Of a stretch of DNA of 64,000 bases, positions 38,222 through 63,665 are shown one piece after another. The position numbers were made by a program, and so were the translations under genes. The stretch comes from Maribacter polysaccharolyticus (lineage in GTDB: Bacteria; Bacteroidota; Bacteroidia; Flavobacteriales; Flavobacteriaceae), in assembly GCF_028882255.1 (NCBI RefSeq), contig NZ_JARBUY010000004.1:1-64000 (forward strand), read 5' to 3'. Positions within the stretch are counted from its first letter, which is position 1; each line of letters opens with the position of its first letter. A model generated the notes under the pieces. That model made no database searches. It saw nothing but the letters and a program-made list of their open reading frames with translations, and had not been told where the DNA came from.

Positions 38222-38294
<73 letters not shown>

Positions 38295-38304
38295 CTAAGC
38301 CAAA

Positions 38305-43645: not shown

Positions 43646-43677
43646 AATTCTTTGTTTTTCAATGTTGGGCACATAAT

Positions 43678-43760: not shown

Positions 43761-43857
43761 ACTTCATACGACGGTATCTATTAAAATAGTCTTCAATACT
43801 CCCTTAGTTTTCATACAAAGTATCAAAAACTGCGTCCCCACTTCCGACCGGACTTGT

Positions 43858-43878
43858 AAAAAAGCCATGGCTTTTTAA
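43858..43878 (-). terminator. Terminator of the TlpA lipoprotein gene
   Basis: AAAAAGCCATGGCTTTTT, a perfect palindrome with T tract on the minus strand, 26 bases after the TlpA stop codon. Confidence 0.7.
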
Positions 43879-43903
43879 TGGTTATAGGTGTTAGGTGCCG
43901 GTT

Positions 43904-45932: not shown

Positions 45933-46490
45933 ATGAATCTCATACTTGAGGAAATTAGCAATAAAAACGAAAAAGTTTTTAAAACATTTTTCAAGAAACA
46001 CTATCCGGAATTAATTGTTTATGCTAATGGCTACCTTTTTGATAAGGATGCAAGTGAAGACCTTGTACAAGAAGTTTTCATCTATATATGGGAGCATGCC
46101 GATAGATTGAAAATAGAAACATCGTTAAAAGGCTATCTCTATACCATGACAAGGAATAGATGTTTAAATTACCTAAAGTCATTGAAGATTCATGATGATT
46201 TTGGAATTCTTGAATTTAACATCAATTTAATTACTGAGACTGTTTTCGATGCTACTTCCGAAGAGGATAAAAAAATTGTTTACCATCAAATCTTAAAAAT
46301 TGTTGACACGCTTCCCGATAAAATGCAGCAAATAGTAAAACTCAAGTTTTTCCAAAATTACAAGTATCAAGAGATAGCAAAAGAGATGAATATTTCTGTA
46401 AATACAGTAAAAACACAATTAAAAAGGGCAAAATTAAAAATTACAGAATTGACAACAATTCTTCTTATTTTGCTTGAAATGAAGCATTAA
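45933..46490 (+). CDS. RNA polymerase ECF sigma factor (FecI-like)
   Basis: A 185-residue sigma-70 family factor of the Bacteroidota SusC/SusD-associated group. Region 2 contains YANGYLFDKDASEDLVQEVF (about 29-48) and region 4 ends with QEIAKEMNISVNTVKTQLKRA (about 147-167), a helix-turn-helix. It should direct transcription of the SusC/SusD run under the control of the FecR protein encoded 120 bases downstream. Confidence 0.93.
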   Translation: MNLILEEISNKNEKVFKTFFKKHYPELIVYANGYLFDKDASEDLVQEVFIYIWEHADRLKIETSLKGYLYTMTRNRCLNYLKSLKIHDDFGILEFNINLITETVFDATSEEDKKIVYHQILKIVDTLPDKMQQIVKLKFFQNYKYQEIAKEMNISVNTVKTQLKRAKLKITELTTILLILLEMKH

Positions 46491-46610
46491 AATTCTTTTT
46501 TCGCCACTTTAATTTTAGTGTTTTTTGAATTTTGTTGAATTAAAATTATTTTTTTGTCACCCATTATTGATTTTTCGTTGTCTTAACTTTAAAACAATGT
46601 AAACTTTAAA

Positions 46611-47741
46611 ATGGATTTCAAATTAATTTTAAAAAAACTAAACAATACTCTTTCTGAAGAGGAATCCGCTATTTTCTCTAAATGGTATAATGATTCTAAC
46701 CAGCACAAAGATTTTTTTGAAAAAGTAAAGCAAGCACAACAAGATGAAGCTTTATTAGTGGATATCGAAAAAGGCTGGAAATCCATAGAAAATAAAATAA
46801 AGCCAGTCTCTGCTAAGAAAACCAATTATTTAAAATATGCCGTTGCCGCATCCATAGTGTTATTGGTATCGATTACCATTATAGTCCAACAGAATACTGA
46901 ACATAAGGTTGTTGCTCCTGAAGTGGCAACAAAAAACATTAAAATCGGTACGGACAAAGCAACGCTTACGTTGGCTGATGGCACCAATGTGACACTAGAA
47001 AAAGGGCAACATTATATTTCAAATAATATTGAGAGTAATGGTGAGGAATTAGTGTATCAACCCTCTAAAAATCAAAATCCTGAAATTGCATACAATTATT
47101 TAGCCATCCCCAGAGGTGGGCAATATCACGTGGTGCTTTCTGATGGCACGGAGGTTTGGTTAAATTCAGAATCGAAATTAAAATATCCAGAAGGTTTTAT
47201 TAAAGGAGAACCTAGAGCTGTGGAATTGGTATATGGTGAAGCTTATTTTGATGTGTCTCCGAGCTCAAATCATGAGGGGGCAAAATTTAAAGTAATAACC
47301 AATGACCAAGAAATAGAGGTGTTGGGTACTGAGTTTAATATAAAAGCTTACCGAGATGAAAATTTAATCTATTCTACTTTGGTGGAGGGGAAGATTTTAA
47401 TAAAATCCGACTCTTATGAAAATATTTTATTGCCCAATCAGCAAACCATCATTAACAAAAATAACAATGCTGTTGACCTTATAAATGTAGATGACCTTTA
47501 CAGTATCACGTCATGGAGAAAAGGTGTGTTTAGTTTCAAGGATATGCCTTTAAGTAATATAATGAAAGTATTATCCAGATGGTATGATGCCGAGGTAATA
47601 TTTGCCAATAAAGAGGCAGAAGATATTTTATTTACAGGGATATTAGATAAGAACCAATCCATTGAAGAGATTTTATTCTCAATTTATAACACCAATAACA
47701 TCACATATGAAATAAATGATAAGACTATAATCTTCAAATAA
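46611..47741 (+). CDS. FecR-family anti-sigma factor
   Basis: A 376-residue inner-membrane protein. A short cytoplasmic N-terminus (about 1-70) would bind the sigma factor; one transmembrane segment lies at about 75-92; the periplasmic part (about 120-376) is the FecR domain, with AIPRGGQYHVVLSDGTEVWL and ELVYGEAYFDVSP, then a C-terminal DUF4974-like region. It would release the sigma factor on contact with the STN domain of SusC. Confidence 0.92.
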   Translation: MDFKLILKKLNNTLSEEESAIFSKWYNDSNQHKDFFEKVKQAQQDEALLVDIEKGWKSIENKIKPVSAKKTNYLKYAVAASIVLLVSITIIVQQNTEHKVVAPEVATKNIKIGTDKATLTLADGTNVTLEKGQHYISNNIESNGEELVYQPSKNQNPEIAYNYLAIPRGGQYHVVLSDGTEVWLNSESKLKYPEGFIKGEPRAVELVYGEAYFDVSPSSNHEGAKFKVITNDQEIEVLGTEFNIKAYRDENLIYSTLVEGKILIKSDSYENILLPNQQTIINKNNNAVDLINVDDLYSITSWRKGVFSFKDMPLSNIMKVLSRWYDAEVIFANKEAEDILFTGILDKNQSIEEILFSIYNTNNITYEINDKTIIFK

Positions 47742-47842
47742 AAAAGAAAGGGAATCAAGGTTAGGAATTCTCACAACACAAACCTCTTTTCCCTCTTAAA
47801 GATAATTAATCAAAAGTTTAACTAATTAACTCAAGCAAATTT

Positions 47843-50800
47843 ATGGAAATTAAATTAACCAAGGTTTTTTTCTTTCTCCGAAAGAAACTGTTAAAAATCA
47901 TTATGAGAACTTTTATCTTTTTATTGTGCTCAACAGTATTTAGTTTTTCTCCAGTAAATGTATTATCACAGAACTTGAAAATTAAAATACCGGAAGATAA
48001 AACCCTTACCGTTGACCAAGTTTTCGACATGATAAAAGAACAAACAGACTTTAGATTTATTTACCGGTCAGACATATTCAAAAATTACCCCAAAGTAAAC
48101 GTTAAAAAAGGGGTTATGAAAGCGAATAGATTGTTGGAAAAGAGTCTGTCAAAAGGGAATTTCAAATTCAACATTTCAGCCAATAACACCATTACGATAA
48201 GAAAGGCATCTGCCGTTCAGGAACTAGAGATCTCAGGTATTGTCACAGATGAAAACGGCCTACCTATACCTGGAATAACGGTGTATATTTCAAGTAGGGA
48301 ACCTGGTAGCGGGCCAATAAACAGTGATTTTTATATTAGGGGCACAGCCACAGATTTCAATGGTGAATTTAAGATAACAGGAGAAGTTGGCTATTATCTA
48401 ATAGCTACTGGTCTAGGGTTTGAATATTTTAAAGCCCAAATTACCCCTGGTCAAACTATTTATAATATTTCTTTAAAGGAATCGGTAAGTGAACTCGATG
48501 AAGTTGTTGTTATATCATCGGGTTTCCAAGAAATATCAAAAGAAAGGGCCACTGGCGCCTATGTGGGGGTTAAAAAAGACCTAATTAATAAGCCTGCATC
48601 CAGTATTTCAGAAAGAATCATAGGCGCAGTTGCAGGGGTTCAAAGTACCGTTGCAGCAGATGGATCCGTTAGTTTTCAAATTAGGGGTTTGTCAAGTTTA
48701 GTGGCTAATGCAGATCCTTTAATTGTTTTGGATGGTTTTCCCATTGAAGGGGCGTTTGAAACCATTAACCCCAATGACGTAGAAAGTATTACGGTATTAA
48801 AAGATGCCGCTGCAGCCTCCATTTGGGGAGCAAAGGCAGCCAATGGGGTGATTGTAGTTGAATCAAAAAAGGTAAAAAAACAGAAGACCAACGTTTCCAT
48901 TTCTACATTTGTTCGTACTTCCAGCAAGTTGGATCTGGATTATGTACTTGCGAGGGGCTCAAGTGCAGATTACTTAGAATATGAACAGGCTGCCTTTGAT
49001 ACCAATTTTTTTGGCGATTACTTTGGACCTCCTAGTATCTCGGCAACTCAGGTATCTTCCCCTTATTCCCAGGCCATAGTAGCAATGAACGAGGCAAGAT
49101 TAGGGAGAATCACGGAAGCTGAAAGAGATGCCACTTTAGCTACCTTGGCCGGTCTGGACAACTCTGATCAAATAAGGGATTATTTGTTGGCTACCCCCTT
49201 AACTGCTCAGTATAACATCAGCATCTCCGGTGGAAATGAGAAAATGGCCAATAGCCTTTCCTTATTGTTCGAAAATAAAAATAGTTATTTCATAGGTGAT
49301 GACACCAAAGAATATCAGGTAAACTTCAAAAATCAAACGCAGTTGGCAAAGGGTTTAAAGTTAGACTTCGGTGCTATGTTACAGTACTCCGATGTAACAG
49401 CGAACTCTGGTGATATGCTAAACGTCATTAAAGGTCTATCGCCTTGGGATATGCTAAAAAATGAAGACGGTTCTTTAACAGATATGTCTTACTTAAATTA
49501 TTACATGCCCAATTTCAACGAATTTGTACCTTCTGAACTTTTCCCTTATTCCGATTGGTCATACAACCCCATAACCGAAGTTCAAAATAGAGATTTAAAT
49601 ACAAAACAATTAAATACTCGCATAAATGCCGGTTTGACCGTGGATATCATCGACGGATTACAATTGTCCTCTAAAATCCAATATGAGTTGTTCAACACTA
49701 AAAATAGGGATTATTACAATGACGAAACATATGCTGTCAGAAAATTTGTAAACGAGACCTCAGGACCTGAATGGCGAACAGGTGATGTGCCGACTCAATT
49801 GGTTCCAAGTGGTGATATCTTAAATTTAAGTTCTAGCGAAGTCAATGCCTATAATTGGAGAAATCAATTAAATTTCAATCGCACATTTAGTGAAAAACAT
49901 CATGTGGATGTATTGTTGGGCAGCGAGTTAAGTAATAGAACGGCCAAAGCTACGATCAACCCTGCTTCATTTGGTTATAATCCAGAGACATTAATAAGTT
50001 CAGACCTCTTAGAGGATCGGGACACTCATCGTTTATGGAATAATTTGCCGGCAACATATGCAGGTTATTTCCATTCATTTGGTTTGTCGTTTCAACATTA
50101 TTTCAGTGAAACCACAACCAGACTGTTCTCATTATATGGAAATTTAGCTTATACCTTTGATGATAAGTATGTAGTAACAGGGAGTTATAGAACAGATGCG
50201 GCTAACATAATTTCGGAAAACCCGGCTTTAAGATATGATCCCTTTTGGTCAGGTGGTTTAGGCTGGCACCTTGGAAAGGAAAATTTCATGGAAGGGGCTT
50301 CTTGGCTAGATAAGATTTACCTAAGAACTACCTATGGTTCTGGCGGTAATATTATTCCAAACTCATCATTTACCCCGATTATCAGTTTGGGCAGTAGCCT
50401 TGATCTGGTTACAGAACAACTTACAGCAACGGTTATTGATGAGGGCAACCCTGATCTTAGATGGGAAAGAACCACTAGTTTAAATATTGGCGTCGATTTT
50501 TCAACCTTTAAAGGTAGGTTGTATGGTAGTATAGATATTTATAATAAGAAAGGTGAGGATTTAATAGTTGACCAAGCTACATCCGGGGTTTATGGAACAA
50601 CATCCCAGAGATTGAATAAGGGAGAAATGGTAAATAAGGGTATAGAGCTAAGCATTGGTACCTCGCTACCTATAAAAGGAAACGACATTGTGTGGTCCGG
50701 AACTTTTAATTATTCCCATAATGATAATGAAATTACTGAATTCAACAAATTGGTATATGGCTCTACAGAGTTGTCCATAGGGCCTACAACTTCTTATGTT

Positions 50801-51454
50801 GAAGGGTATAACGCAAACGAACTTTGGTCTTTTGAATATGCCGGCTTATATGATGCAGGAGGTGGTGTTATGGCACCCAGCGTATATGGGGAAGATGGCA
50901 GCAATATCGATCTTAACTTGGGAGCAGGTGGTAATCCTCTCGATTATATGATTGCAGGTGGTACAACGAATGCCCCAACAATACTAGGCGTTAGAAATGC
51001 TTTTAAAATTTACGATTTTGACTTTTCATTTATCTTCACCGGAAAATTTGGTCATGTTTTTAGAAGACAGGGCTTTAACTACGACGATCTTTCAAATGGA
51101 AACTCCTATGTTAATGAGAAATTTAGCGAGGTAGCCAACGGTGATCCCAACGAAATTTTACCATATCCATCAACTGGGGGGGTATCTAGGTATTATTTTT
51201 ATTCTGTTTATTACCCTTATTTGTCTTACCTAACAGAAAACGCATCACATATTAGATTGCAAGAGGTCAATCTTACCTATAATCTACCAAAAAGTATCAC
51301 AAATAAACTAGGAATAAATTCATGGAGCCTTTTTGCACAAGCCAATAACTTGGGAGTCATTTTGTTCAATGATTTTGGTGAAGATCCAGAATACCCCAAA
51401 GAAAGTCTAAGGCCACAGGCCACCTTCACATTAGGCATGAATTTAAACTTTTAA
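47843..51454 (+). CDS. SusC/RagA-family TonB-dependent transporter with STN domain
   Basis: A 1203-residue outer-membrane protein. The N-terminus is the long leader seen in this family; an alternative start at 47903 (MRTFIFLL) is possible. Residues about 48-122 form an STN (secretin/TonB N-terminal) signalling domain. A carboxypeptidase-regulatory-like domain follows (about 130-215), then the plug with SFQIRGLSSLVANADPLIVL and DAAAASIWGAKAANGVI (about 265-350), and a barrel ending FTLGMNLNF. The STN domain lets ligand binding signal to FecR and the sigma factor. With SusD it should form a lidded import complex for large ligands. Confidence 0.95.
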   Translation: MEIKLTKVFFFLRKKLLKIIMRTFIFLLCSTVFSFSPVNVLSQNLKIKIPEDKTLTVDQVFDMIKEQTDFRFIYRSDIFKNYPKVNVKKGVMKANRLLEKSLSKGNFKFNISANNTITIRKASAVQELEISGIVTDENGLPIPGITVYISSREPGSGPINSDFYIRGTATDFNGEFKITGEVGYYLIATGLGFEYFKAQITPGQTIYNISLKESVSELDEVVVISSGFQEISKERATGAYVGVKKDLINKPASSISERIIGAVAGVQSTVAADGSVSFQIRGLSSLVANADPLIVLDGFPIEGAFETINPNDVESITVLKDAAAASIWGAKAANGVIVVESKKVKKQKTNVSISTFVRTSSKLDLDYVLARGSSADYLEYEQAAFDTNFFGDYFGPPSISATQVSSPYSQAIVAMNEARLGRITEAERDATLATLAGLDNSDQIRDYLLATPLTAQYNISISGGNEKMANSLSLLFENKNSYFIGDDTKEYQVNFKNQTQLAKGLKLDFGAMLQYSDVTANSGDMLNVIKGLSPWDMLKNEDGSLTDMSYLNYYMPNFNEFVPSELFPYSDWSYNPITEVQNRDLNTKQLNTRINAGLTVDIIDGLQLSSKIQYELFNTKNRDYYNDETYAVRKFVNETSGPEWRTGDVPTQLVPSGDILNLSSSEVNAYNWRNQLNFNRTFSEKHHVDVLLGSELSNRTAKATINPASFGYNPETLISSDLLEDRDTHRLWNNLPATYAGYFHSFGLSFQHYFSETTTRLFSLYGNLAYTFDDKYVVTGSYRTDAANIISENPALRYDPFWSGGLGWHLGKENFMEGASWLDKIYLRTTYGSGGNIIPNSSFTPIISLGSSLDLVTEQLTATVIDEGNPDLRWERTTSLNIGVDFSTFKGRLYGSIDIYNKKGEDLIVDQATSGVYGTTSQRLNKGEMVNKGIELSIGTSLPIKGNDIVWSGTFNYSHNDNEITEFNKLVYGSTELSIGPTTSYVEGYNANELWSFEYAGLYDAGGGVMAPSVYGEDGSNIDLNLGAGGNPLDYMIAGGTTNAPTILGVRNAFKIYDFDFSFIFTGKFGHVFRRQGFNYDDLSNGNSYVNEKFSEVANGDPNEILPYPSTGGVSRYYFYSVYYPYLSYLTENASHIRLQEVNLTYNLPKSITNKLGINSWSLFAQANNLGVILFNDFGEDPEYPKESLRPQATFTLGMNLNF

Positions 51455-51464
51455 AAAAAACATA

Positions 51465-52991
51465 ATGAAAAAAGGATATATATATACACTGTTTGTTGCT
51501 CTATTAACTTTATTTAGTAGTTGTGATGATTTTTTGGACGAAACCCCATCCAAAACATCGGCTATAAGTCCAAGTTCTCTAGAGGAGTATGAAGCTATAT
51601 TGGACAATTATACCCAGTTTTATAAAGAGGGCATTTATCCAGCGATTTTTGGTACGGATGATTTTGGATTAATCACCGATCTACACGACAATGGTGGGCT
51701 CTATAATACATACCATGCCATCTATGGTACGTGGAACAACGAGTTGGGCCCAGATGCAGGAAATTCTGGATGGTCAGGGGAATGGAGAAAAATTTTCATG
51801 GCTAATATGGTTCTCGCCGAAATTGAAGATGTTGACGCCACTGACGAAGAAAAAGCCAATATTATAGCAGAATGCCATTTTATCAGAGCATATAGCTATT
51901 TTGTTTTAGCCAATACATTTTGTTTACCCTATACAGAGGCAAATAAACAAGAGTTGGGACTGCCCATAAAGCAAACAACCAGCTTTGATGAAAGTATTAA
52001 AAGAGCGAGTCTTGAAGAAACTTATGAGTTAATTGAATCAGATCTCACAAAAGCTTTGGAAATAACCCGAGAGTTTGGAGAAGTCAATGATTTAAAACAA
52101 TCTTGGCGGGCAAACACAGCTGCTGTAAATGGTTTTGCGGCACGCTATTATTTGTCTTTAAATGATTATGGGACCGCGCAAGCTTTCGCCCAAATGTCCC
52201 TTGACGAGTATGACTTCTTGAGAAACTATAATACAGATATGCGGTATTCGGATATTACTTATAACGTAACCATTTTTGATCCAGACCCAACTCAAGTAGA
52301 AATACTTTATCCCTATACCCGTGAATTACAGAGCGTGCATGAAGATAGATTGGAGTTTGGGGAATTATACTATTATAGAATGATGTACAACGGTAATTGG
52401 GCCTATTGGCCATCACCGGAATTGCTTGATCTTTATGATCAAACCAATGATTTAAGATACAAATACCATGTGGTGGAAGATTATTCATATGACCGTGGGG
52501 CCAAAGACCCTCCATATAGCTATCCAGGTTATATTTTCTTCTTTAGGAGTGATCTTCCCAGTGGGCCATCTGTTTCAGAAATGCTCCTAATCAAGGCAGA
52601 ATGCCAAATAAGACAGGGGGCCTGGGCCGAAGGGATTGAAACAGCCAATATATTAAGAGCTGCCAGAATGGATGCCATGGCAGATGCTTCCGAAATTAAT
52701 TTAAGTGCAACTTCTCAAGGAGAAGCCTTAACGCTGCTATTGGAAGAACGCCGAAGAGAAATGCCTTTTGTTCACAGATGGTATGATATTAGACGCTACA
52801 ATAACAATGAAGATACCTCGGATGATGTCATTGTCTCCAGAACGTTCTATCCATATAATGCAAACGTCATTTTAGGCGATGAAAGTCCGGTTACCATAAC
52901 CTTGGATATAAACTCTAGAAAATATGCCTTCCCGATCCCAAATTCGGAAATTCTTATTTCAGAAGGAGCATTGGAACAAAATCAATATTGA
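51465..52991 (+). CDS. SusD/RagB-family surface lipoprotein
   Basis: A 508-residue lipoprotein (signal LFSSCDDFLDETPSK, cysteine at residue 20) with the family's helical tetratricopeptide-like fold. Typical markers are FLDETP at the start, EWRKIFMANMVLAEIEDVD (about 106-124), ECHFIRAYSYFVLAN and the C-terminal LLEERRREMPFVHRWYDIRR. It lies 10 bases after SusC and ends in a strong terminator. Its ligand is probably what the SusC pore imports; no sugar-degrading gene lies directly next to it. Confidence 0.94.
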   Translation: MKKGYIYTLFVALLTLFSSCDDFLDETPSKTSAISPSSLEEYEAILDNYTQFYKEGIYPAIFGTDDFGLITDLHDNGGLYNTYHAIYGTWNNELGPDAGNSGWSGEWRKIFMANMVLAEIEDVDATDEEKANIIAECHFIRAYSYFVLANTFCLPYTEANKQELGLPIKQTTSFDESIKRASLEETYELIESDLTKALEITREFGEVNDLKQSWRANTAAVNGFAARYYLSLNDYGTAQAFAQMSLDEYDFLRNYNTDMRYSDITYNVTIFDPDPTQVEILYPYTRELQSVHEDRLEFGELYYYRMMYNGNWAYWPSPELLDLYDQTNDLRYKYHVVEDYSYDRGAKDPPYSYPGYIFFFRSDLPSGPSVSEMLLIKAECQIRQGAWAEGIETANILRAARMDAMADASEINLSATSQGEALTLLLEERRREMPFVHRWYDIRRYNNNEDTSDDVIVSRTFYPYNANVILGDESPVTITLDINSRKYAFPIPNSEILISEGALEQNQY

Positions 52992-53002
52992 TTTGTGAAA
53001 AC

Positions 53003-53037
53003 AAAAGGCTTGTTAAACTTTCTTTAGCAAGCCTTTT
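53003..53037 (+). terminator. Terminator after SusD
   Basis: AAAAGGCTTGTTAAA pairs with TTTAGCAAGCCTTTT in a long stem with one G-T pair, 12 bases after the SusD stop codon. It separates SusC/SusD from the TlpA genes. Confidence 0.85.
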
Positions 53038-53187
53038 AAACCGAATCTATCGTTTTCCTATCGGTAAAAATCCGAAATAAAGGCTCTTGTTTCAATTGTC
53101 GGACTGCGAATTGTTCTGTTTGCACATGCCCTTTTACGGCAAATTACCGAGGGGTTATTTCTTGTTAATCCAATCAAATCATAAAAC

Positions 53188-54567
53188 ATGAAAAAAATAA
53201 AATTCATGCTGTTTCTTACAATTTTAGGAATGGTGGCCTGTAAAAAAAACATCCCCGAAATCAACTATGTTATTTTAAAAGGGGTTATCAATAATACAGA
53301 AGGAGGCCAGCTTAAAATTAGTTCCATTGAGGGGTTTTCCAAAACTATAAATTTTAAAGATTCAGTAGCATTTATAGATACCCTAAGGATTAAGGAAGGG
53401 CTCTATTACATTCGTTATGACAAGGGGTATTCACCTGTTTACATGGCACCAGGCAACGTTATACATTTTTCTGCTGACCACCAGCTTTATGGCAGAGCAT
53501 TGAATTTTAAAGGGGATAATGCAAGTATAAATAATTATTACTCTAAAAAGTTTCTAGATGTATATGCTTTCAAATTGAAAAACAAGGAACATTATGCTTT
53601 GGAAGAATCTGATTTTGAAAATCTTATAAAGAAGCTTCAACTCAGTGCGGAAATGAAACTTGATGTTGTTTCAAATATACCTGACGAACTCAGGGCCAAA
53701 GAAAGACGTGCTTTAAATTATGAAAGAATAAACAGAAAAAGTATTTATGAATATTATCATGCCCACTTTGCAAAAAAAGAAGGGTTTAAAACTACTGATG
53801 CCTTTCAAAAGGAAATCAATGATTTACCTTTAAACAACACAGCGGACTTTTTCTATTCTTCAGATTATAAAAGCTTGGTAAGTCAGAAAATCACAAAAGA
53901 CGCCAAGGAAATTGCCAAAAGGGATTCTATTTCCTCTCCCCTGGCCCAATTGGATGCAGCTTCAAAACTAGAAAAAGACACCATTGCCAACCAGCTTATG
54001 TACAATACTTTAAACATGTATTTACCCATGGCAAAGCAAAAACAGCTGCTGATAGATAAGTACATGACTTTATCTACCAACCAAGAGCACAAACAAAAAA
54101 TAAAGGTCCTTTACCAAGAACTGCAAGCCTTGGATTCCAATAATCCCTCGCCCGAGTTTGTAAATTACGAAAACCATGATGGCGGAAGTACGTCATTGGT
54201 AGATTTAAGAGGAAAATTTGTTTACATGGATATTTGGGCCACCTGGTGTGCACCGTGTAAATATGAAATCCCTTATCTAAAAAAAATCGAAAAACAATAC
54301 CATGATAAAAACATCCATTTTGTAAGCATTTCTACAGATAAACAAAAAGATAAAGACAAATGGAAAAAAATGGTAACCGAAGATGAAATGGGGGGAATTC
54401 AATTAATTACGGATAATGATTTTAACACCTCTTTCATTAAAAAATTTAAAATCATGGGCATACCCCGATTTATATTATTGGATCCAGAAGGAAACATTGT
54501 TAGGGCCAATGCACCAAGGCCTTCGGACAAAAAGTTAATTGATTTGTTTAACGAACTAGGAATTTAA
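53188..54567 (+). CDS. TlpA-family thioredoxin lipoprotein
   Basis: A 459-residue protein with a lipoprotein signal (ILGMVACKKN, cysteine at residue 19). The N-terminal part (about 25-125) has the beta-rich DUF4369-type fold seen before many TlpA domains in Bacteroidota; a helical section follows, then a thioredoxin domain with IWATWCAPCKYEIPYL (about 347-362) and IMGIPRFILLDPEGN. It should reduce disulfides at the periplasmic face. It starts 197 bases after SusD, past a strong terminator, so it needs its own promoter. Confidence 0.88.
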   Translation: MKKIKFMLFLTILGMVACKKNIPEINYVILKGVINNTEGGQLKISSIEGFSKTINFKDSVAFIDTLRIKEGLYYIRYDKGYSPVYMAPGNVIHFSADHQLYGRALNFKGDNASINNYYSKKFLDVYAFKLKNKEHYALEESDFENLIKKLQLSAEMKLDVVSNIPDELRAKERRALNYERINRKSIYEYYHAHFAKKEGFKTTDAFQKEINDLPLNNTADFFYSSDYKSLVSQKITKDAKEIAKRDSISSPLAQLDAASKLEKDTIANQLMYNTLNMYLPMAKQKQLLIDKYMTLSTNQEHKQKIKVLYQELQALDSNNPSPEFVNYENHDGGSTSLVDLRGKFVYMDIWATWCAPCKYEIPYLKKIEKQYHDKNIHFVSISTDKQKDKDKWKKMVTEDEMGGIQLITDNDFNTSFIKKFKIMGIPRFILLDPEGNIVRANAPRPSDKKLIDLFNELGI

Positions 54568-54672
54568 TCCACATAGGTTAAAAATAAATTGGTAAAGTTT
54601 TCATCTGTTTGTATTTCTCAATAGGGAGCTACATTATTAGCTGATAACCGACACCTCAAAACACTAAAATCA

Positions 54673-55866
54673 ATGCATAAACTTTTTTTATTACTCGTAT
54701 TATTCGCATTTACCGGTTCTTGTAAAAGGCAGGTAAATACAGAGGGCTATACTATTTCAGGCAATGTAAAAAATCTTGATAATGTTTATATCAAACTCAA
54801 AGAAGGAGGGTTTCGTGATCGGTCTAAAATAAAAACCATAGATAGTGTTAAAATTGCCAATGGTAAATTTGAATTCAAAGGAAAGGTAGACCATCCAGAT
54901 ATGGTAAATTTAGTGGTTGAATCCAAATTTCAAGCTCAATTCATAATTGAAAATAGCGATATAAAAATTGATATCGATGTTACCCGGAAAAAGGAAAAAA
55001 GCCCTTATTTTAAATTCGAAGTTACGGGCTCCAACAGCAATGAATTATATCAAAAAGCGGATGCAGCCTGTCTAGCAGTTTTTAAAGACGCCAAGTATAG
55101 CCAATTAGACACTTTAAAAGCCTTATTTGTTAAAGCAAAAAAGGATACATCATACCTTGAAAAAGCACAAAAATTAAAAGTTGAATTAAGTCCTTTGACT
55201 AAAGAAAGATCTGAAAGATACAAAAACAAAAAGTATGATTTTGTTCGTAATAATCCGGAGGATCCGGCATCGGTATATATCTTAGGATACTTTTACAGCG
55301 AAGTTAGAATGACCGCTGAAGAGCTAGAAGAGTTCTATAACCTCTTTAAAGGAGACGCTCGCAAAACAAACTTTTTTATATCCCACATTTCAAAAATTTA
55401 TAAAAATTATTTTGAAAAATTAGGTGTTGGCAGCATTGCTCCAGATTTCACTTTAAATAATCTAGAAGGCCAACCGGTACGTCTTTCAAAGATCAATGCC
55501 AAGTATAAGTTGGTAGATTTTTGGGCCAGTTGGTGTATTCCCTGCAGAAAATCATTTCCGCATTTGAAAGAATTAAGAGAAAAATATAAAAATGATGGCT
55601 TTGAAATTATAGGTATAGCCACTTCGGATGGTGAAGATAAATGGCGAAAAGCAATTGAAGAAGACCAGACACCATGGTTACATGTATTTGATGCGACCAA
55701 TACATCAAAGGGCACAGCAAATGCCAATAAAGGCGATGTTTCAACAAATTACGGGGTTTCCTTTTTACCTACCTCCTTTTTAATGGATAACAATGAAAAA
55801 ATCATTCTTAGAAACCCATCAAAGGAAGAATTGGATATGAAACTAAAAGAGCTATTTGGCTATTAA
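54673..55866 (+). CDS. TlpA-family thioredoxin lipoprotein with DUF4369
   Basis: A 397-residue protein with a lipoprotein signal (FAFTGSCKRQ, cysteine at residue 17). The DUF4369 domain (YTISGNVKNLDNVYIKL, about 25-115) is clear, followed by a helical linker and a thioredoxin domain with FWASWCIPCRKSFPHL (about 283-298) and SFLPTSFLMDNNEK. The active site -CIPC- differs from the -CGPC- and -CAPC- of its paralogues, which suggests a different redox partner or potential. It is 105 bases after the previous TlpA gene. Confidence 0.9.
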   Translation: MHKLFLLLVLFAFTGSCKRQVNTEGYTISGNVKNLDNVYIKLKEGGFRDRSKIKTIDSVKIANGKFEFKGKVDHPDMVNLVVESKFQAQFIIENSDIKIDIDVTRKKEKSPYFKFEVTGSNSNELYQKADAACLAVFKDAKYSQLDTLKALFVKAKKDTSYLEKAQKLKVELSPLTKERSERYKNKKYDFVRNNPEDPASVYILGYFYSEVRMTAEELEEFYNLFKGDARKTNFFISHISKIYKNYFEKLGVGSIAPDFTLNNLEGQPVRLSKINAKYKLVDFWASWCIPCRKSFPHLKELREKYKNDGFEIIGIATSDGEDKWRKAIEEDQTPWLHVFDATNTSKGTANANKGDVSTNYGVSFLPTSFLMDNNEKIILRNPSKEELDMKLKELFGY

Positions 55867-55882
55867 ACTAACTAATTGAAAA

Positions 55883-57067
55883 ATGCAAAATATTAAAAAT
55901 ATAATTTTTATCGGTTTAATTCTACTTATAGGAATAGCGCATAGTTCAGCTCAAAACAATGATAACAGCTTTACCCTTACAGGAGAAATTAAAGGCTTAA
56001 ACGGTAATTTATATTATAGGCACCCAGATAAAAAATATGACCGAGCTACACCATCAGATTCCATTGTAGTCAATAATGGCAAATTTACATTAACAACTAC
56101 TGTTTCTGAATTATCCATGCTCAGAATATTTCCTTCATTTAGGGGGGCAGATAAAAAGTTGTCCAAAATACCTAAGGGGGGAAAAGGCTATTTACCCGTA
56201 AAATGTGCCTCTATTATGGTCTATGCATCTCCAGGTGCACATGTTACCATAAATGGTGAAGCAAAAGATTTTTTTGATGCCTATCCAAGTGGAAATGCAT
56301 ATAATGATGGCTTAGCAAAGGTTAATAAGCTAATGTACCCAATGTATAACGAAATGGGCAACTTAGCCGTACAAACCACTTATGAGGAAGAGGAAGTTAA
56401 AAAAGAAGCCATTAATAAAGAATCTGAAGCCATTTTCAAAAAATCCATTGATGCTTTAACCGATCACATTAAAAATAATCCAAACGATTTAGCTTCTGCC
56501 TGGTACTTAAATGATTTAATGTTACGCACCCAAATATCCAATGACCAAGCTAAAATGTTGTTCAGTTCATTATCTACAGATTTAGCTGAATATTCAGATT
56601 ATCAAAATGTATCATCGCGTATACAAGGTATAAAAACAACTGCCGATGGTTTTCCCGTACCAAGTATAAAAACGAATGCAACCCTGAACGGAAAGGAATT
56701 TGATATCACTTCTTTGAGAGGTAAATATGTCCTGATAGATTTTTGGGGTATTTGGTGTAGACCCTGTATGGCAGAAATGCCAATTATAAAACAGTTTCAA
56801 GAAAAACACAAAGATAAATTGGTGGTGATAGGAATTAACTCAGGTGATACCAAAGAAAAAATCCAAAAGTTTGTTCAAGAGCATGATTATACTTGGCTAC
56901 AACTAATGAGCGACAAAAAAAATACTGCCGATAATTTTGTAAATAGGTTTAACGTACAAGGCTTTCCAACAAAGTTCATTGTAGATATGAAAGGAAAAAT
57001 CATTAAAAGAATTGTTGGTAATGGCGAAGAGGCCTTTAATCTTTTAGAAGATCTTTTGAGCAAATAA
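55883..57067 (+). CDS. TlpA-family thioredoxin protein, soluble
   Basis: A 394-residue protein. Its signal peptide ends near HSSAQNN (about residue 23) and has no lipobox, so it is a soluble periplasmic form, unlike its lipoprotein neighbours. The DUF4369-like part (about 28-110) is followed by a helical section and a thioredoxin domain with FWGIWCRPCMAEMPII (about 287-302) and FNVQGFPTKFIVDMKG. The -CRPC- active site is again different. It lies 16 bases after the preceding TlpA gene, so they share a transcript. Confidence 0.9.
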   Translation: MQNIKNIIFIGLILLIGIAHSSAQNNDNSFTLTGEIKGLNGNLYYRHPDKKYDRATPSDSIVVNNGKFTLTTTVSELSMLRIFPSFRGADKKLSKIPKGGKGYLPVKCASIMVYASPGAHVTINGEAKDFFDAYPSGNAYNDGLAKVNKLMYPMYNEMGNLAVQTTYEEEEVKKEAINKESEAIFKKSIDALTDHIKNNPNDLASAWYLNDLMLRTQISNDQAKMLFSSLSTDLAEYSDYQNVSSRIQGIKTTADGFPVPSIKTNATLNGKEFDITSLRGKYVLIDFWGIWCRPCMAEMPIIKQFQEKHKDKLVVIGINSGDTKEKIQKFVQEHDYTWLQLMSDKKNTADNFVNRFNVQGFPTKFIVDMKGKIIKRIVGNGEEAFNLLEDLLSK

Positions 57068-57237
57068 ACACCAAAATAAATCTAAAATGATATTACTCTC
57101 CATGACCTCTAAATCAAAATCAAATAGCTATAGAAAACACTAGTAACAAACCGTGTTTTGATAATTGATATTTAACTGCCAGGGGGAAAGGGATAATTTA
57201 ATACCTACAATTCAAATAAACATATAAAAAACATTAC

Positions 57238-60039
57238 ATGAGAAAATTATCAGCTTTGTTTCTACTAATAAGTACAAATATTTTTGCACAAGATTTACGG
57301 GCTCCAATTCCAGAAGACGAAAGTATCAAAAAAGGGGTGCTACCCAATGGTTTAACGTATTACATTAAAAGTACGGATGTAGTAAAAGACGCTGCCAGTT
57401 ATTACATTATTCAAAATGTAGGGTCTGTTTTAGAAAATGACGACCAACAAGGTTTAGCTCATTTTTTGGAACATATGGCATTCAATGGAACCGAGAATTT
57501 CAAAGGCAAAGGAATCCTTAATACGTTTGAAGAAAAAGGTTTGGTATTTGGTAGGGATATAAATGCCTACACTTCTTTTGACGAAACAGTTTATAACATC
57601 AACAATGTCCCAACAACCCCGGAACTCATAGAAAAAGGCTTATTGGTGTTGCATGATTGGTGTAATTACCTATTGTTGACAGATGAAGAGGTTGATGCCG
57701 AAAGGGGTGTGATCAAGGAAGAATGGAGAACACGCCAAACCGGACAAATGCGTTTGTTTCAATCTTCATTACCAATAACGTTTAACCATTCCAAGTACGC
57801 CGAAAGATTACCCATTGGTTCAATGAGTGTTGTTGAGAATTTTGAGTACCAAGCGCTACGCGATTTTTATCATGATTGGTACAGAACCGATTTACAAGCC
57901 ATTGCTGTAGTTGGTGATATTGATGTGAATGCGATTGAAACAAAAATCAAAAAGCTTTTTTCAGGAATTCCAGCCGTAAAAAACCCTAGGGAACGTTTTA
58001 TTATTGAAGTTCCGGAAAACAAAAAAATGCTTTATAGCCTAGGATTGGATAAAGAAATTTCAACTGCACTGTTAAACTTCGGTATCCGTCATGAGAAATC
58101 TTCAAAAGACCAAACAGTTGAAGATTTAAAGAACGCATTATTAGAATCAATGGTTACGAATATGCTCTCTGCAAGAATAAAGGAAGTGGCCCAAAAACCG
58201 GATGCACATTTTTTAGGAGCTAGTTTGGGGTATAAATCAATGTCAAGAAGAAATAATGTTTTCAATATTAGAATAACCCCAAAACCGGGAGAGCAACAAC
58301 AATCTTTCGCTGAGGTGCTTACAGAAGTTTTTAGAGCCGTTAAATTCGGTTTCACATCCTCAGAAATTGATAGAACTATAAAAAAGTTTTCTAACCACTA
58401 TGAAACACAAATAGCAAAAAAAGATGATAAACATCACGGAGCGATAATTAGTGTTATAAAAGACAACTATCTAAATAACAAAACCATAGCTGATATTGAA
58501 AAGGAGTATGCTATTGCTAAAACATTATTTGCTTCTTTTACTCCAGAAACCTTGCATAACACCATCAAAAGGCTGTATGCAAAAAAGAATAGGTTTTTGA
58601 ATGTCACAGGGGTTGAGGGCCAAAACAACTTAACAGAGGAGCAAGCCCATACTACTATTGATACGGTCGAAAACAACCCGCACCTTACCCCTTACACTGA
58701 AGTATTTGAAGGTAAATCTTTAATTTCAGGACTGGATATAAACGAAGGAAATATTGAAAAGACTGAAAACAATAAGGCCCTTGGTTCAACAACCTATACA
58801 CTAAGCAATGGTATTAAAGTTCATTATAAATTTGCCGATAAACAGAAAAACACTGTAGCATTTTATGCCATAAGCCAGGGAGGTAATTCATTGATAAAAG
58901 ATGAAGATTTACCATCTGCCAACCTCGTAGGCAACCTAATTCAAATGTCTGGATTAGGGGAATTTTCAGCCACGGAACTACCAAAAATTTTAGCGGGGAA
59001 AACAGCTTCAATGGCACCTGGCATAGGCGAAACTACAGAAAATCTTAAAGGGTCCTCCACTTCAAAAGATGTCGAAACCATGTTGCAATTGGCGCATTTA
59101 CACTTTGTTAAACCCCGTTTTGACGAACAAGCGTTTCAAGTATTACAAGGTAACATCAATAATTACCTTATTAGAAGGAGTAAAGATGTAAATGAGAAAA
59201 TAAAGGACAGCATTACAACTACCTTGTACGGTAATGATAATCCTAGAAAAAGAATCTTTGACAGAGAATTTGCCAATGACATTAGTTTTAACAAGATGAA
59301 AACTGTGTATTTAGGCAGATTTGCCAATCCGTCAGATTTTGAGTTCTTTATTGTAGGTGATGTAAAAGCAGATCAATTAGAACCATTATTATCAAAATAT
59401 ATAGCTAGTTTACCAACTACTACAAATACGGAAACCTATAAAGACGTAGCCGCTTCATGGAACAGTAGCAAAGTAGATGAAGATATTTTTCTTCCTATGG
59501 AAGACCCCAAAACCAATGTTAATATAGCATTTAAAATAATCAATGATTACACGGTTAAAAATAAACTTGTAACTCAGGCTTTAGGTGATATTCTGCAATT
59601 AAGATTAACCGAAACACTTCGTGAAGAAGAAGGTGGAGTGTATAGCCCTAGAGCGCAGGCATTTTTAACCAAGGCCCCTAAAGTTTTATCGTACTTATCA
59701 GTTGGTTTTGATTGTAATCCTGAATTGGCAGAAAAACTTATAGGTATTGTTCATGGTGAATTGTCAAAATTGGCAATAGGAGATATTAAACAAGAGGATC
59801 TCGACAAAACACTTACCAGTTATAAAAAATCCAGGGAACAATCCAAAAGCAATAATAATTATGACATGGCTTTATTAACAACGTTTTTCAGGGACGGATA
59901 TAATATGGATGAGTCAAAAAACTTTGAAGATGTAATTAAGGGTATTGGCAAAAAGGATATTAAAACCTTAGCAAAGCAATTACTAAAGAAAGGAAAGTCT
60001 TATGAAATAGTATTTAAACCATTAAAAGAAAAAATATAG
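57238..60039 (+). CDS. M16-family zinc metallopeptidase
   Basis: A 933-residue exported peptidase of the pitrilysin/insulinase family. The signal peptide ends near IFAQDL (about residue 18). The inverted zinc motif HFLEH (H75, E78, H79) is intact, with the third ligand E155 exactly 76 residues after H79 (EEVDAERGVIKEEWR), so the first half is catalytic. The second half (from about 520, YTLSNGIKVHYKF) repeats the fold without the metal motif. Such enzymes cut peptides enclosed in a chamber, usually below about 70 residues. It is probably the peptidase that processes the ligand imported by SusC/SusD. Confidence 0.93.
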   Translation: MRKLSALFLLISTNIFAQDLRAPIPEDESIKKGVLPNGLTYYIKSTDVVKDAASYYIIQNVGSVLENDDQQGLAHFLEHMAFNGTENFKGKGILNTFEEKGLVFGRDINAYTSFDETVYNINNVPTTPELIEKGLLVLHDWCNYLLLTDEEVDAERGVIKEEWRTRQTGQMRLFQSSLPITFNHSKYAERLPIGSMSVVENFEYQALRDFYHDWYRTDLQAIAVVGDIDVNAIETKIKKLFSGIPAVKNPRERFIIEVPENKKMLYSLGLDKEISTALLNFGIRHEKSSKDQTVEDLKNALLESMVTNMLSARIKEVAQKPDAHFLGASLGYKSMSRRNNVFNIRITPKPGEQQQSFAEVLTEVFRAVKFGFTSSEIDRTIKKFSNHYETQIAKKDDKHHGAIISVIKDNYLNNKTIADIEKEYAIAKTLFASFTPETLHNTIKRLYAKKNRFLNVTGVEGQNNLTEEQAHTTIDTVENNPHLTPYTEVFEGKSLISGLDINEGNIEKTENNKALGSTTYTLSNGIKVHYKFADKQKNTVAFYAISQGGNSLIKDEDLPSANLVGNLIQMSGLGEFSATELPKILAGKTASMAPGIGETTENLKGSSTSKDVETMLQLAHLHFVKPRFDEQAFQVLQGNINNYLIRRSKDVNEKIKDSITTTLYGNDNPRKRIFDREFANDISFNKMKTVYLGRFANPSDFEFFIVGDVKADQLEPLLSKYIASLPTTTNTETYKDVAASWNSSKVDEDIFLPMEDPKTNVNIAFKIINDYTVKNKLVTQALGDILQLRLTETLREEEGGVYSPRAQAFLTKAPKVLSYLSVGFDCNPELAEKLIGIVHGELSKLAIGDIKQEDLDKTLTSYKKSREQSKSNNNYDMALLTTFFRDGYNMDESKNFEDVIKGIGKKDIKTLAKQLLKKGKSYEIVFKPLKEKI

Positions 60040-60111
60040 TCTTTCTGAATAAAATTGTTTTTAGTTTAATTTTTTGAGTTGGCCAACCATAAGTTTAATA
60101 GATAGATGCCG

Positions 60112-60142
60112 AAAAGGGCTAGTATCAATAGCCCTTTTTTTT
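60112..60142 (+). terminator. Terminator between the peptidase and dsbD
   Basis: AAAAGGGCTA / TAGCCCTTTT hairpin with T tract, 73 bases after the peptidase stop codon and 22 bases before the dsbD start. Confidence 0.8.
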
Positions 60143-60164
60143 AATGAATCAACGAAATGTAATT

Positions 60165-62120
60165 ATGAAAAAGTTATTGATAATTATAGTATTTGCCTTT
60201 ACCACAAGTGGGTTTTCCCAAATTTTAGATCCCGTATCCTGGTCTACCTCTGTTGAAAAAATTTCCGATACCCATTATGAATTAATAAGTAAAGCCTCAA
60301 TTGAAACAGGTTGGCATCTATATTCCCAAAACGTTCCCGAAAATGGTCCAATACCAACTACGTTTTCCTATGATGACAGTGATGGTAGTTTTAAAATAAT
60401 TGACAATACAGAGGAAGAAATAGGGCATACGGTACACGACCCCGTTTTTGAAATGGAAATTAAATTTTTTGAAAATTCGGCCATTTTCAAACAAAAAGTA
60501 GAAGTTCGGCCAGGAACAAAAAGCATCAATGGATCTGTGGAATTTATGGTGTGTGACGATGCGCGCTGTTTACCACCCACCGAAATCGATTTGGTTTTTA
60601 GCCTCTCGGACAATTCAAAAACTGAAGCATCGGATACAACCACTAATATAATTTCACCTCGAAATTCCGTTAAAGCTTCGAAGAAAGGACTTTGGGGTAT
60701 ATTCTTCATTGCATTTCTATCAGGTTTTGCAGCGTTGTTGACACCCTGCGTATTTCCCATGATTCCAATGACGGTGAGTTTTTTTACCAAACAAAGTAAA
60801 ACCAAGGCAAAAGGCATAAAAAACGCCATTATTTATGGGGTTTGCATCATTGTTATTTATGTGTTATTAGGAACTGCAGTAACAGGTGTTTTTGGGGCCG
60901 ACGCCTTAAACGCTCTGGCAACCAATGTCTGGTTTAATATTATTTTCTTTTTTCTGCTAGTCGTTTTTGCAGTCTCGTTTTTAGGCGCTTTTGAAATTAT
61001 GTTACCAAATTCTTGGGCCAATAGCGTAGACTCAAAAGCCAATAGAGGTGGACTCATAGGTATCTTTTTTATGGCATTGGCATTGGCCATTGTGTCATTT
61101 TCATGTACTGGGCCCATTGTCGGTACCTTGTTGGTAGAAGCCGCATCCAAAGGAGGTTTAGCACCTATAATAGGGATGTTCGGTTTTTCATTGGCCATTG
61201 CATTACCCTTTGCATTATTTGCTGCCTTTCCAGGTTGGTTAAACTCATTGCCAAAATCCGGAAGTTGGCTAAATACGGTTAAAGTTGTTTTAGGTTTTTT
61301 AGAACTGGCCTTGGCATTTAAATTTTTATCACAAGCTGATTTGGTATTGCAAGCACATTTACTGGAACGTGAAGTATTTTTAGCCATCTGGATAGCCATT
61401 TTTGGAGCTTTGGCATTTTATTTATTTGGAAAAATACAATTACCTCACGATTCCCCACTAAACCATATATCGGTAGGTAGATTAGGTTTGGGATTGGTGG
61501 TACTATCATTCACCATCTATATGATTCCAGGGCTTTGGGGCGCACCATTAAATTTAATAAGTGCCTTCCCACCACCACAGGACTATAGCGAATCCCCTTA
61601 TGGTGTTGGGTTTTCTAAATTAGGGACAACAAATGTTTTAGACACTCAATTAGGTTTGCCCGATGGTGCCCACCTATTGGCACCACATGATATTTTAGCC
61701 TTTAATGATTATGATAAAGGCTTGGCATATGCTAAAGAAGTGAATAAACCGGTAATGATTGATTTTACAGGTTGGGCCTGTGTAAACTGTAGAAAAATGG
61801 AGCAAAACGTTTGGCCAAAACCTGAAGTATTGAACATCCTTAAAAATGATGTGGTTTTAATCTCATTATATGTTGATGATAAACGCCCGTTGGAACCCCA
61901 TGAAATAACGGCATCCCAATTAAAACCCGGGAAACAATTGAAATATATTGGTCAAAAATGGAGTGAATTGCAAACTTTAAGGTACAAGGCAAATTCGCAA
62001 CCATTTTATGTTCTGATGGATCACAGTGAAGAAAACTTAATAGACCCCGTTGCCTACACCCCAGATCCTAAAGCATATCACAATTGGCTGCATGAAGGAA
62101 TTAAAAACTTTAAACAATGA
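60165..62120 (+). CDS. dsbD: Thiol:disulfide interchange protein DsbD
   Basis: A 651-residue inner-membrane electron carrier. The start at 60165 gives a signal peptide; an in-frame start 7 codons upstream adds a short lead. The periplasmic alpha domain (about 20-145, with [12 protein letters not shown]) is followed by eight membrane segments holding [17 protein letters not shown] and [10 protein letters not shown], and a C-terminal thioredoxin domain with [14 protein letters not shown] (about 530-543). All three cysteine pairs needed to pass electrons from cytoplasmic thioredoxin to the periplasm are present. It should recharge the neighbouring TlpA proteins. Confidence 0.94.
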
Positions 62121-62138
62121 TATTTTTATTATAGATAG

Positions 62139-63665
62139 ATGAATGTTATCAGAAATTTTCTAAAAGGGACATCAGATTCACGCCAAAAAGCGGTATCAAC
62201 ATCAAATCTTGAAACCTATTTTTCGGCATTTAGAGATCATGTAGTGGGTTTGGACAAGACATTCATATCCCCTTACGGAGAAAAAAAAATCATATATGCC
62301 GATTGGACCGCCAGCGGAAGACTATACAGACCCATTGAAGAAAAATTACTTTATGAAATTGGTCCGTTTGTTGCCAACACACATACCGAAACCTCAATAA
62401 CAGGAAGTGTGATGACGCATGCCTATCGTGATGCCAGAGCTATCATAAAAAGGCACGTTAACGCATCCAGTGATGATGTATTGTTAACCGAAGGTACCGG
62501 TATGACCGGGGCTATCAATAAGTTTCAGCGTATATTGGGCATTAAGGTCAACGAAAATCTGAAAGAACACACCCAAATTCCAGAAGAAAAAAGACCTATA
62601 GTTTTTGTGTCACACATGGAACATCACTCTAACCAAACCTCCTGGTTAGAAACCATTGCACGGGTTAAGGTCATTCCGTCCAATAGGGAAGGTTTGCCGT
62701 GTTTGGAAAGTTTGGAGCGACTACTACAAGAACACAGTCAAACGCCCATAAAAATAGCAGCAATTACAGGGTGTTCCAACGTAACGGGAATTAGAACACC
62801 TTACCACGGCATCGCTAAAATAATGCACCAAAATAACGGTTTGTGTTTTGTGGATTTTGCATGCTCAGCACCTTATGTCCAGATAGATATGCATCCTAAA
62901 AGCGAAGACGAATACTTAGATGCCATCACTTTTTCACCACATAAATTTTTAGGTGGCCCCGGAACAACAGGTGTTTTGATATTCAATAAAAAACTATATA
63001 AAAACCTAGTGCCCGATAACCCGGGAGGTGGAACCGTTTCCTATACCAATCCTTGGGGCGACCATGATTTTATAGATGATATAGAAACCCGCGAAGATGG
63101 TGGAACCCCTGGTTTTTTACAAGCCATTAGAATTGCACTTTCCATTAAGTTGAAGGAAAAAATGGGCATTGAAAACATCATGGAAAGAGAGCGCGAATTG
63201 AATACCATTATTTTTGAAAGACTATCAAAAATCAATAATTTAAACCTATTAGCACCTGATCACACAGAACGTTTAGGCGTGTTTTCATTTTATATAGAAA
63301 ATGCGCACTACAATTTAGTAGTAAAATTGTTGAATGACCGTTTTGGAATCCAAACCAGGGGTGGCTGTTCCTGTGCTGGTACGTATGGGCATTATTTATT
63401 GAATGTAGATCAGCCAACATCAAAATCCATTGAGTTAAAAATATTGGAGGGCTGTTTAATGGAGCGTCCGGGCTGGATACGTATGTCCATTCATCCGACC
63501 ATGACCAATGCCGAGATCGAGTTTATTTGTGATGCCATTGAGCAAGTGGCAAACAACTACAAAACATGGGAAGAAGATTACGAATATGACTTTATTAAAA
63601 ACGAGTATATCCATAAAGAAAATCATGATGTTGAGAATGGAATAATCAAGGGTTGGTTTGAATAG
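62139..63665 (+). CDS. Class V aminotransferase / cysteine desulfurase-like PLP enzyme
   Basis: A 508-residue cytoplasmic fold-type I PLP enzyme of the cysteine desulfurase/selenocysteine lyase superfamily (COG0520-like). SHMEHHSNQTSW at 158-169 and ITFSPHKFLGGPGTTGV (Schiff-base lysine K269) form the cofactor site; GGGTVSYTNP follows. Near the C-terminus RGGCSCAGTYGH (C410, C412) matches the position of the desulfurase active-site cysteine loop, but the exact chemistry is unproven. It is longer than SufS and lies 18 bases after dsbD. No suf or isc genes are near, so iron-sulfur assembly is unlikely to be its role. Confidence 0.85.
   Translation: MNVIRNFLKGTSDSRQKAVSTSNLETYFSAFRDHVVGLDKTFISPYGEKKIIYADWTASGRLYRPIEEKLLYEIGPFVANTHTETSITGSVMTHAYRDARAIIKRHVNASSDDVLLTEGTGMTGAINKFQRILGIKVNENLKEHTQIPEEKRPIVFVSHMEHHSNQTSWLETIARVKVIPSNREGLPCLESLERLLQEHSQTPIKIAAITGCSNVTGIRTPYHGIAKIMHQNNGLCFVDFACSAPYVQIDMHPKSEDEYLDAITFSPHKFLGGPGTTGVLIFNKKLYKNLVPDNPGGGTVSYTNPWGDHDFIDDIETREDGGTPGFLQAIRIALSIKLKEKMGIENIMERERELNTIIFERLSKINNLNLLAPDHTERLGVFSFYIENAHYNLVVKLLNDRFGIQTRGGCSCAGTYGHYLLNVDQPTSKSIELKILEGCLMERPGWIRMSIHPTMTNAEIEFICDAIEQVANNYKTWEEDYEYDFIKNEYIHKENHDVENGIIKGWFE

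Follow-up and report, generated by a model that had tools for sequence, protein, structure and literature searches.

The window analysed here, 64,000 nucleotides of Maribacter polysaccharolyticus (contig NZ_JARBUY010000004.1, positions 1 to 64,000), carries a run of ten genes on the forward strand (45933-63665) that codes for an importer of the SusC/SusD type (SusCD) with its regulators, three TlpA-type reductases, an M16 zinc protease, DsbD and a pyridoxal phosphate (PLP) enzyme. An earlier model reading of the sequence without database searches (the first-pass annotation) had described these ten genes as one run, and we could confirm this, since all open reading frames (ORFs) are intact and lie on the same strand, and their families match in Pfam and NCBIfam scans (Table 1). 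The run consists of two modules: module A contains an extracytoplasmic function (ECF) sigma factor/FecR pair, SusC, SusD and the three TlpA proteins, module B an M16 protease of the PqqL/FusC type, DsbD and a SufS-like PLP enzyme. The gaps between successive genes are 120, 101, 10, 196, 105, 16, 170, 104 and 18 bases, and tight packing is limited to susC/susD, tlpA2/tlpA3 and dsbD/csd. With these three tight pairs, the run might be read as a single transcript. Scans for sigma-70 sites (66 found, 70 expected), terminators (12 found, 13.7 expected) and a Bacteroidota promoter pattern (7 found, 4.9 expected) were uninformative. The genome itself holds 20 SusD matches (19 over the cut-off) and 24 Redoxin matches, and, out of these 20, the SusD of the run alone has a Redoxin-family match at a distance of up to 5 kb (for one other the distance is up to 9 kb) and, by position, it is the only one with an M16 match near it.

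Regarding the importer, the assignment as SusC stood, whereas the STN domain claimed for it stayed below the threshold in the window (E 0.0079); in the SusC proteins of three relatives, one (L021) exceeded the cut-off (E 2.7e-9) and the other two gave nothing. All nine solved-structure matches of the window SusC are of the SusC/RagA type. The best solved sequence match of SusD is 8ypt (72 bits; the next one reaches 37), an entry known to us by its title alone, which names a BfUbb-ButCD complex and thereby a SusCD pair holding a ubiquitin-like protein. In the fold search, SusD shares about 20% identity with 8ypt, and RagB is also among the fold matches of the SusD model, which is poor (pLDDT 58).

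The M16 protease is intact, as had been claimed: neither HFLEH (75-79) nor E155 varies across an alignment of 18 M16 sequences. Its solved sequence matches are led by 9ldy (528 bits; by title a putative zinc protease from Porphyromonas gingivalis), followed by PqqL from E. coli (252 bits) and FusC (124 bits), and Foldseek returned the same order for the AlphaFold2 model (pLDDT 87.5). By sequence as well as by fold, the PqqL/FusC group is nearest to the window M16, with the reservation that the fold match to PqqL has a TM value of 0.47 and an rmsd of 37, perhaps because the chain is open. A periplasmic signal sequence was recognised by eye.

The three TlpA motifs named before (CAPC, CIPC and CRPC) are present. 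DsbD is complete, with N-terminal, membrane and C-terminal domains and with cysteines at positions 137, 142, 202, 234, 321, 546 and 549; the three cysteine pairs attributed to it are in line with these residues, whose pairing we take to be that of known DsbD proteins. In L122, L125, L128, L130 and other loci, a small gene of approximately 150 codons often lies between M16 and dsbD and matches only residues 8-156 of the window DsbD; the window has no such separate gene at this place. In L015 (Lutibacter), seven TlpA-type ORFs, one of them cut by the end of the locus, precede M16.

We searched for the M16 protein across 397 genomes of the family Flavobacteriaceae and obtained matches with E ≤ 1e-250 in 43 of them, the own genome included. 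The 44 M16-orthologue loci are all those listed from the 42 other genomes, with at most two candidates scored per genome; as the SusD orthologue search likewise scored at most three, paralogues are under-counted. A first M16 contig scan covered the best 80 of 585 confirmed places, and 6 of the 44 orthologue rows repeat its records. Neighbouring genes were labelled with profiles built from relatives (E 1e-6) and not with Pfam, which explains stray small 'susC' labels in L010 and L014, and SusCD was counted only where both SusC and SusD were seen. On the same strand as M16, 21 of the 44 loci have SusC and SusD no more than 10 kb upstream (two others are too short for a decision), 31 have DsbD no more than 4 kb downstream, 21 have the PLP gene within 9 kb and 23 have TlpA within 10 kb; all four parts stand beside M16 in nine. 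With strict same-strand runs (gaps below 600 bases) the numbers are 16 for SusCD, 30 for DsbD, 19 for the PLP gene and 7 for the full set. Given how densely SusD genes occur in the own genome, the chance that a random gene has one on its strand within 10 kb is about 0.02, and 21 linked loci out of 42 would arise by chance with a probability of about 1e-24 when the loci are treated as independent, a rough figure because they are related. Among 60 more distant M16 loci (among L023-L084), 18 of which are too short, SusCD was found in eight, DsbD in three and the PLP gene in one. One genome (G036) possesses four M16 genes with at least 49% identity, three of them with sigma/FecR-SusCD upstream.

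The two modules are not bound to each other. The nearest M16 in the sample (L122, 83% identity) is accompanied by a similar DsbD (75%) and PLP enzyme (78%), but by a SusC of only 27% identity, and the nearest SusC and SusD (L130, 76 and 83%) are paired with a less similar M16 (62%). The SusD orthologues of G222 and G337 (67 and 69%) and their TlpA genes lie on another contig than the M16-DsbD-PLP module (L117 with L123 and L166 with L125 are such separated halves). A TlpA gene directly follows SusD in all seven other family genomes with a SusD match of E ≤ 1e-60, in one of which (G021) susD holds a stop, and at a further SusD orthologue (L118) two genes of another kind, the u500 pair described below, and an M16 gene follow instead of TlpA. 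On the M16 tree (79 rows; a quick tree, no mixture model, with a long-branch warning) the SusCD-linked state changes at least 18 times, and the SusCD-M16 pair therefore seems to re-form. The co-occurrence proposed as a check by the first-pass annotation was thus found, SusCD, M16, DsbD and TlpA being repeatedly associated; the linkage of TlpA, dsbD and the PLP gene with SusCD recurs in relatives, but not as one fixed locus, since two modules separate and recombine. A fixed single pathway with exactly this set is to be rejected, as the halves separate and swap and only nine of 44 loci hold all four parts.

The PLP enzyme had been described as a desulfurase-like class V enzyme. This holds for the catalytic lysine and the loop cysteine: like SufS, the window enzyme has the PLP lysine and a reactive cysteine in an R-x-G-x-x-C-A loop (Cys412 aligns with the SufS loop cysteine), and RGGCSCAG is found in 54 and SPHK in 57 of 57 aligned rows, the window and repeats included. 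It does not hold for the family score, which is 147 bits against SufS (TIGR01979) with a cut-off of 475. The PLP gene is present in 60 of 120 family genomes, and its position is less than 10 kb from an M16 match in five of these 60; we therefore rejected the enzyme as proof that cysteine is used. We picked 20 csd loci out of 62 places, for the most part not near the M16 orthologue. The dsbD gene is directly upstream of csd in nine of them and one TlpA gene away in two, and these 11 include all nine loci with at least 77% identity; the remaining nine, among them the second copy of the own genome (73%), lack dsbD. SusC/SusD was seen in none of the 20 csd loci. In one (L087), a distant M16 gene stands in front of dsbD. 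As the PLP gene tracks dsbD and not SusCD, the handling of released cysteine, which had been part of the original proposal, is its weakest step and was not borne out. In L008, L010 and L014 the PLP gene is followed by hutH- and hutU-like genes and in L008 and L010 also by a hutI-like gene (all by eye), which would belong to histidine use.

Scans of ORFs with Pfam and NCBIfam revealed no carbohydrate-active enzyme within 45933-63665. The statement that the run contains no glycoside hydrolase was correct: a GH3 gene upstream on the opposite strand and fucosidase and GH92 genes downstream lie outside. The in-run genes of linked loci, scanned gene by gene with a few small genes left out, gave thioredoxins, DsbD_N, trypsin-like and aspartyl proteases, an amidohydrolase and a polyketide-cyclase type, furthermore DUF4465, DUF4843, PKD_2, F5/8, thrombospondin repeats, ABC-2 or no family. 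Carbohydrate-type matches occurred in only one linked run (L159) of those scanned. Of the 74 families matched by 63 unassigned neighbours (at least 150 residues, from within and around the runs of 26 loci), 25 were displayed, and they include two sulfatases and one GH109 C-terminal domain.

Some SusCD-linked loci carry a different cassette. ABC-2 permease and ATPase genes lie between SusCD and M16 in L007, L049, L053, L058, L065, L139 and L160 (the labels were checked with Pfam for one permease and one ATPase). TlpA or DsbD is near in none of these seven loci, compared to 26 of 27 other SusCD-linked loci (Fisher p 1.5e-6, a value that overstates the evidence because the seven belong to approximately three tree groups). 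A protein of about 500 residues, here called u500, is paired with a small DsbD N-domain-like protein in L015, L117, L118, L156, L166, L171, L172 and L173. The copies tested gave no Pfam or NCBIfam match, and u500 is an undescribed protein family. A CxC pair is present in nine of nine full or nearly full copies and a longer CxC-D-H pattern in seven. Seven of 397 family genomes possess u500: in five it lies in a run with SusCD and TlpA, in G006 (L173) it is neighbour both to a TlpA gene and to a sigma/FecR-SusC locus, and in G306 (L174) a susC-like ORF has a short u500 copy beside it.

The gene content, the intact catalytic residues, the recurrent linkage and the swapping of modules are direct observations. 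In our reading, to which we give a probability of about 0.5, the run serves SusCD-type import combined with reductive proteolysis of a peptide or small protein that contains cysteine and perhaps binds a metal. When the ligand binds at SusC/SusD, the signal would pass through the STN-like domain and FecR to the ECF sigma factor and so might switch on the cluster, and SusCD would carry the ligand into the periplasm. There, disulfides could be opened, or thiolate-bound metal released, by the TlpA proteins, which DsbD would keep in the reduced state with electrons from the cytosol, and the unfolded chain would be cut by the M16 protease of the PqqL/FusC type. The SufS-like enzyme is a companion of DsbD, and any tie to imported cysteine is a guess. 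We infer the ligand, be it a cysteine-containing peptide, a small protein or a metal complex. From the disulfide-peptide utilization system proposed in the first-pass annotation, the recurrent set, the scarcity of carbohydrate enzymes and the M16 type remain, while the fixed locus and the cysteine step do not; its ligand is still inferred.

Several observations weigh against this reading. SusCD is absent from 21 of the 42 M16 loci long enough to tell, and likewise from L005 and L006, whose M16 has 77-80% identity, and on the same quick tree TlpA and DsbD follow SusCD without significance (14 independent pairs, median p 0.22 and 0.45). The M16 loci without SusCD, the halves on different contigs in G222 and G337 and the gaps of 196, 170 and 104 bases that break the run would fit two independent operons side by side, module B being a general periplasmic redox and protein-turnover unit and module A importing something unrelated. 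We regard this as unlikely, since many different SusCD pairs accompany M16 in 21 of 44 loci and the linked state changes at least 18 times on the tree, and since module A has TlpA genes even in L117, L166, L169 and L170, where no module B was seen next to it. An ordinary locus for polysaccharides or glycopeptides with its glycoside hydrolases elsewhere is quite improbable. SusCD pairs usually serve glycans, and GH3, fucosidase and GH92 genes flank the run, the GH3 gene however on the other strand. The sole carbohydrate-type exception among the in-run genes scanned is L159, where a sulfatase and a marginal GH59 match stand between SusCD and M16. In two distant Bacteroidales loci, GH97 and a tricorn-type protease (L030) or GH31 (L067) lie between SusD and M16, which means that ordinary glycan loci may also contain M16 genes of the distant kind. 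The quality of the SusD model does not allow a pocket to be read from it, and the window SusC scores 193 bits with 5t3r (in three pieces), which we take to be a glycan importer, versus 184 bits with ButC (full length); the evidence from the receptor for a protein ligand is therefore suggestive only.

The two other rivals keep the import of a peptide or protein but change its purpose. A Fus-like acquisition of metal, where SusCD takes up a small metalloprotein or metal-thiolate peptide, TlpA and DsbD reduce the thiolates and M16 destroys the carrier, appears doubtful. FecR/ECF control is typical of metal uptake, and the CxC pair is constant in the nine full or nearly full copies of the u500 partner family from relatives. 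In the available sections of PMC6793856, FusC processes imported ferredoxin and the expression of PqqL is iron-dependent. On the other hand, the family scan gave no metal-uptake gene in the run (regulatory boxes were not searched), and M16 is only 18-23% identical to FusC and PqqL in the fold search. It is very improbable that the system takes up a disulfide-bonded antimicrobial or another bacterial peptide toxin or modified peptide, which the reductases and M16 would destroy. The similarity of SusD to the pair with the ubiquitin-like BfUbb (8ypt title) would suit this, as would IDE, another M16 enzyme, which was solved with small disulfide peptides such as insulin (by titles). However, the run showed no recognisable gene for a toxin, an immunity protein or a precursor peptide, and the small ORFs listed for two stretches beside it include a single one with three cysteines (67 codons long), for which nothing else speaks.

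The proposed import and reductive proteolysis of a cysteine-containing ligand might extend beyond this locus. Tentatively, and with somewhat less confidence than for the run itself, we propose that Flavobacteria hold a modular family of SusCD-based protein or peptide importers, in which a standard kit (FusC/PqqL-type M16, DsbD or its N-terminal domain (nDsbD) and TlpA) has repeatedly been re-attached to divergent receptors with their own ECF/FecR switch. Disulfide-bonded or thiolate-metal proteins would be opened reductively and then cut in the periplasm, the ABC-2 cassette being an alternative to the thiol kit and the CxC protein with its stand-alone DsbD N-domain partner being optional. Protein import with periplasmic proteolysis has already been described for Proteobacteria (Fus and YddB-PqqL). 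If it also holds for SusCD in Bacteroidota, with reduction added, some SusCD pairs without carbohydrate enzymes would be importers of proteins or peptides, TlpA genes beside SusCD would be given a role, and the question of the ligand would become testable by deleting defined modules.

The cluster was likely acquired. The G+C content is 0.356 at 38300-64000, compared to 0.422 at 1-38000 and 0.403 in the next 16 kb, and at third positions it is 0.27-0.37 in the run versus 0.48-0.51 in lysS and alaS. The shift starts at 38001 (2-kb windows), beside a tRNA-Met gene (38222-38295). Orthologues of SusD and M16 were not found in the two sampled genomes of the same genus (G032 and G267) at the thresholds used, and we found the tRNA end repeated neither in the window nor in the downstream part of the same contig (L004). 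The divergent GH3 gene lies 2.3 kb upstream of the run, and a glycan locus follows directly after it (Table 1).

Table 1. Genes of the run, neighbouring features and copies of u500 (window coordinates unless a locus is named)
Feature	Position	Strand	Evidence or remark
ECF sigma factor, Bacteroidota Sig70_bacteroi1 type	45933..46490	+	TIGR02985, 144 bits (cut-off 126)
FecR-type anti-sigma factor	46611..47741	+	PF04773 and PF16344
SusC/RagA TonB-dependent importer, possible N-terminal STN domain	47843..51454	+	TIGR04056, 542 bits (cut-off 368)
SusD-type lipoprotein lid	51465..52991	+	PF14322/PF07980; best solved sequence match 8ypt
TlpA-type reductase 1, CAPC, probable lipoprotein (Cys18 by eye)	53188..54567	+	
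TlpA-type reductase 2 with DUF4369, CIPC, probable lipoprotein (Cys17 by eye)	54673..55866	+	
TlpA-type reductase 3 with DUF4369, CRPC, signal sequence by eye	55883..57067	+	
M16 zinc protease, PqqL/FusC group, HFLEH and E155 intact	57238..60039	+	
DsbD, N-terminal, membrane and C-terminal domains	60144..62120	+	PF11412, PF02683, PF13899
SufS-like class V PLP enzyme, SPHK and RGGCSCAG loop, no signal sequence by eye	62139..63665	+	
Fourth TlpA-type protein (CGPC), probable lipoprotein by eye	43904..45220	-	divergent neighbour, membership uncertain
GH3-type gene and fourth TlpA protein	40934-45220	-	divergent from run
Probable ParE/antitoxin pair	38871-39393		named by eye; in low-G+C stretch
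Arylsulfotransferase (ASST) domain protein with InlB-type repeat	36556-38061	+	beside tRNA gene
Hybrid two-component regulator, two fucosidase-like genes, GH92 gene	contig 64057-75660 (L004:4057-15660)		glycan locus right after run; one fucosidase-like gene scanned
u500 copies	L166:7115-8683, L117:497-1984, L118:11647-13215, L156:9319-10869, L015:7077-8561		

In the open-access literature, no title or beginning of an abstract among the entries listed (in two cases 20 of 46 and 15 of 310) deals with M16, TlpA or insulinase at a SusC/SusD locus, which does not prove absence in print; nothing appeared under 9LDY, nor did a paper on ButCD, and the part of PMC10434189 at hand contains nothing on this gene set. 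The closest parallels are Fus and YddB-PqqL, protease-associated import systems, where a protein enters through a TonB-dependent receptor and is cut by an M16 enzyme; according to the sections of PMC6793856 at hand, this is shown for ferredoxin (FusC) and proposed for the rest. These sections describe Proteobacteria; the text of the paper mentions SusC once, in a supporting-figure legend, and SusD never.

As in Fus of Pectobacterium and YddB-PqqL of E. coli, a TonB-dependent receptor gene of the run is linked to a periplasmic M16 of the PqqL/FusC group with intact residues, this linkage is found in many genomes (21 of 44 loci), and the receptors diverge strongly while the protease type stays. 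Unlike there, the receptor is SusC with a SusD lid and not of the FusA/YddB family, and TlpA, DsbD, the PLP enzyme and ECF/FecR control are added. The run works like a protease-associated import system but is not a member, because its receptor is SusC. With RagAB, other peptide-binding SusCD pairs and BfUbb-ButCD it shares the SusCD pair, and its SusD matches 8ypt best, but it has linked reductases and an M16 protease (8ypt being known by its title). With polysaccharide utilisation loci it shares the core of ECF sigma/FecR, SusC and SusD, but none of the carbohydrate-active enzymes. A complete DsbD with TlpA partners is also known from thiol-reducing pathways; in contrast to these, the run places them beside an importer and a protease and has three TlpA genes, two of which encode probable lipoproteins.

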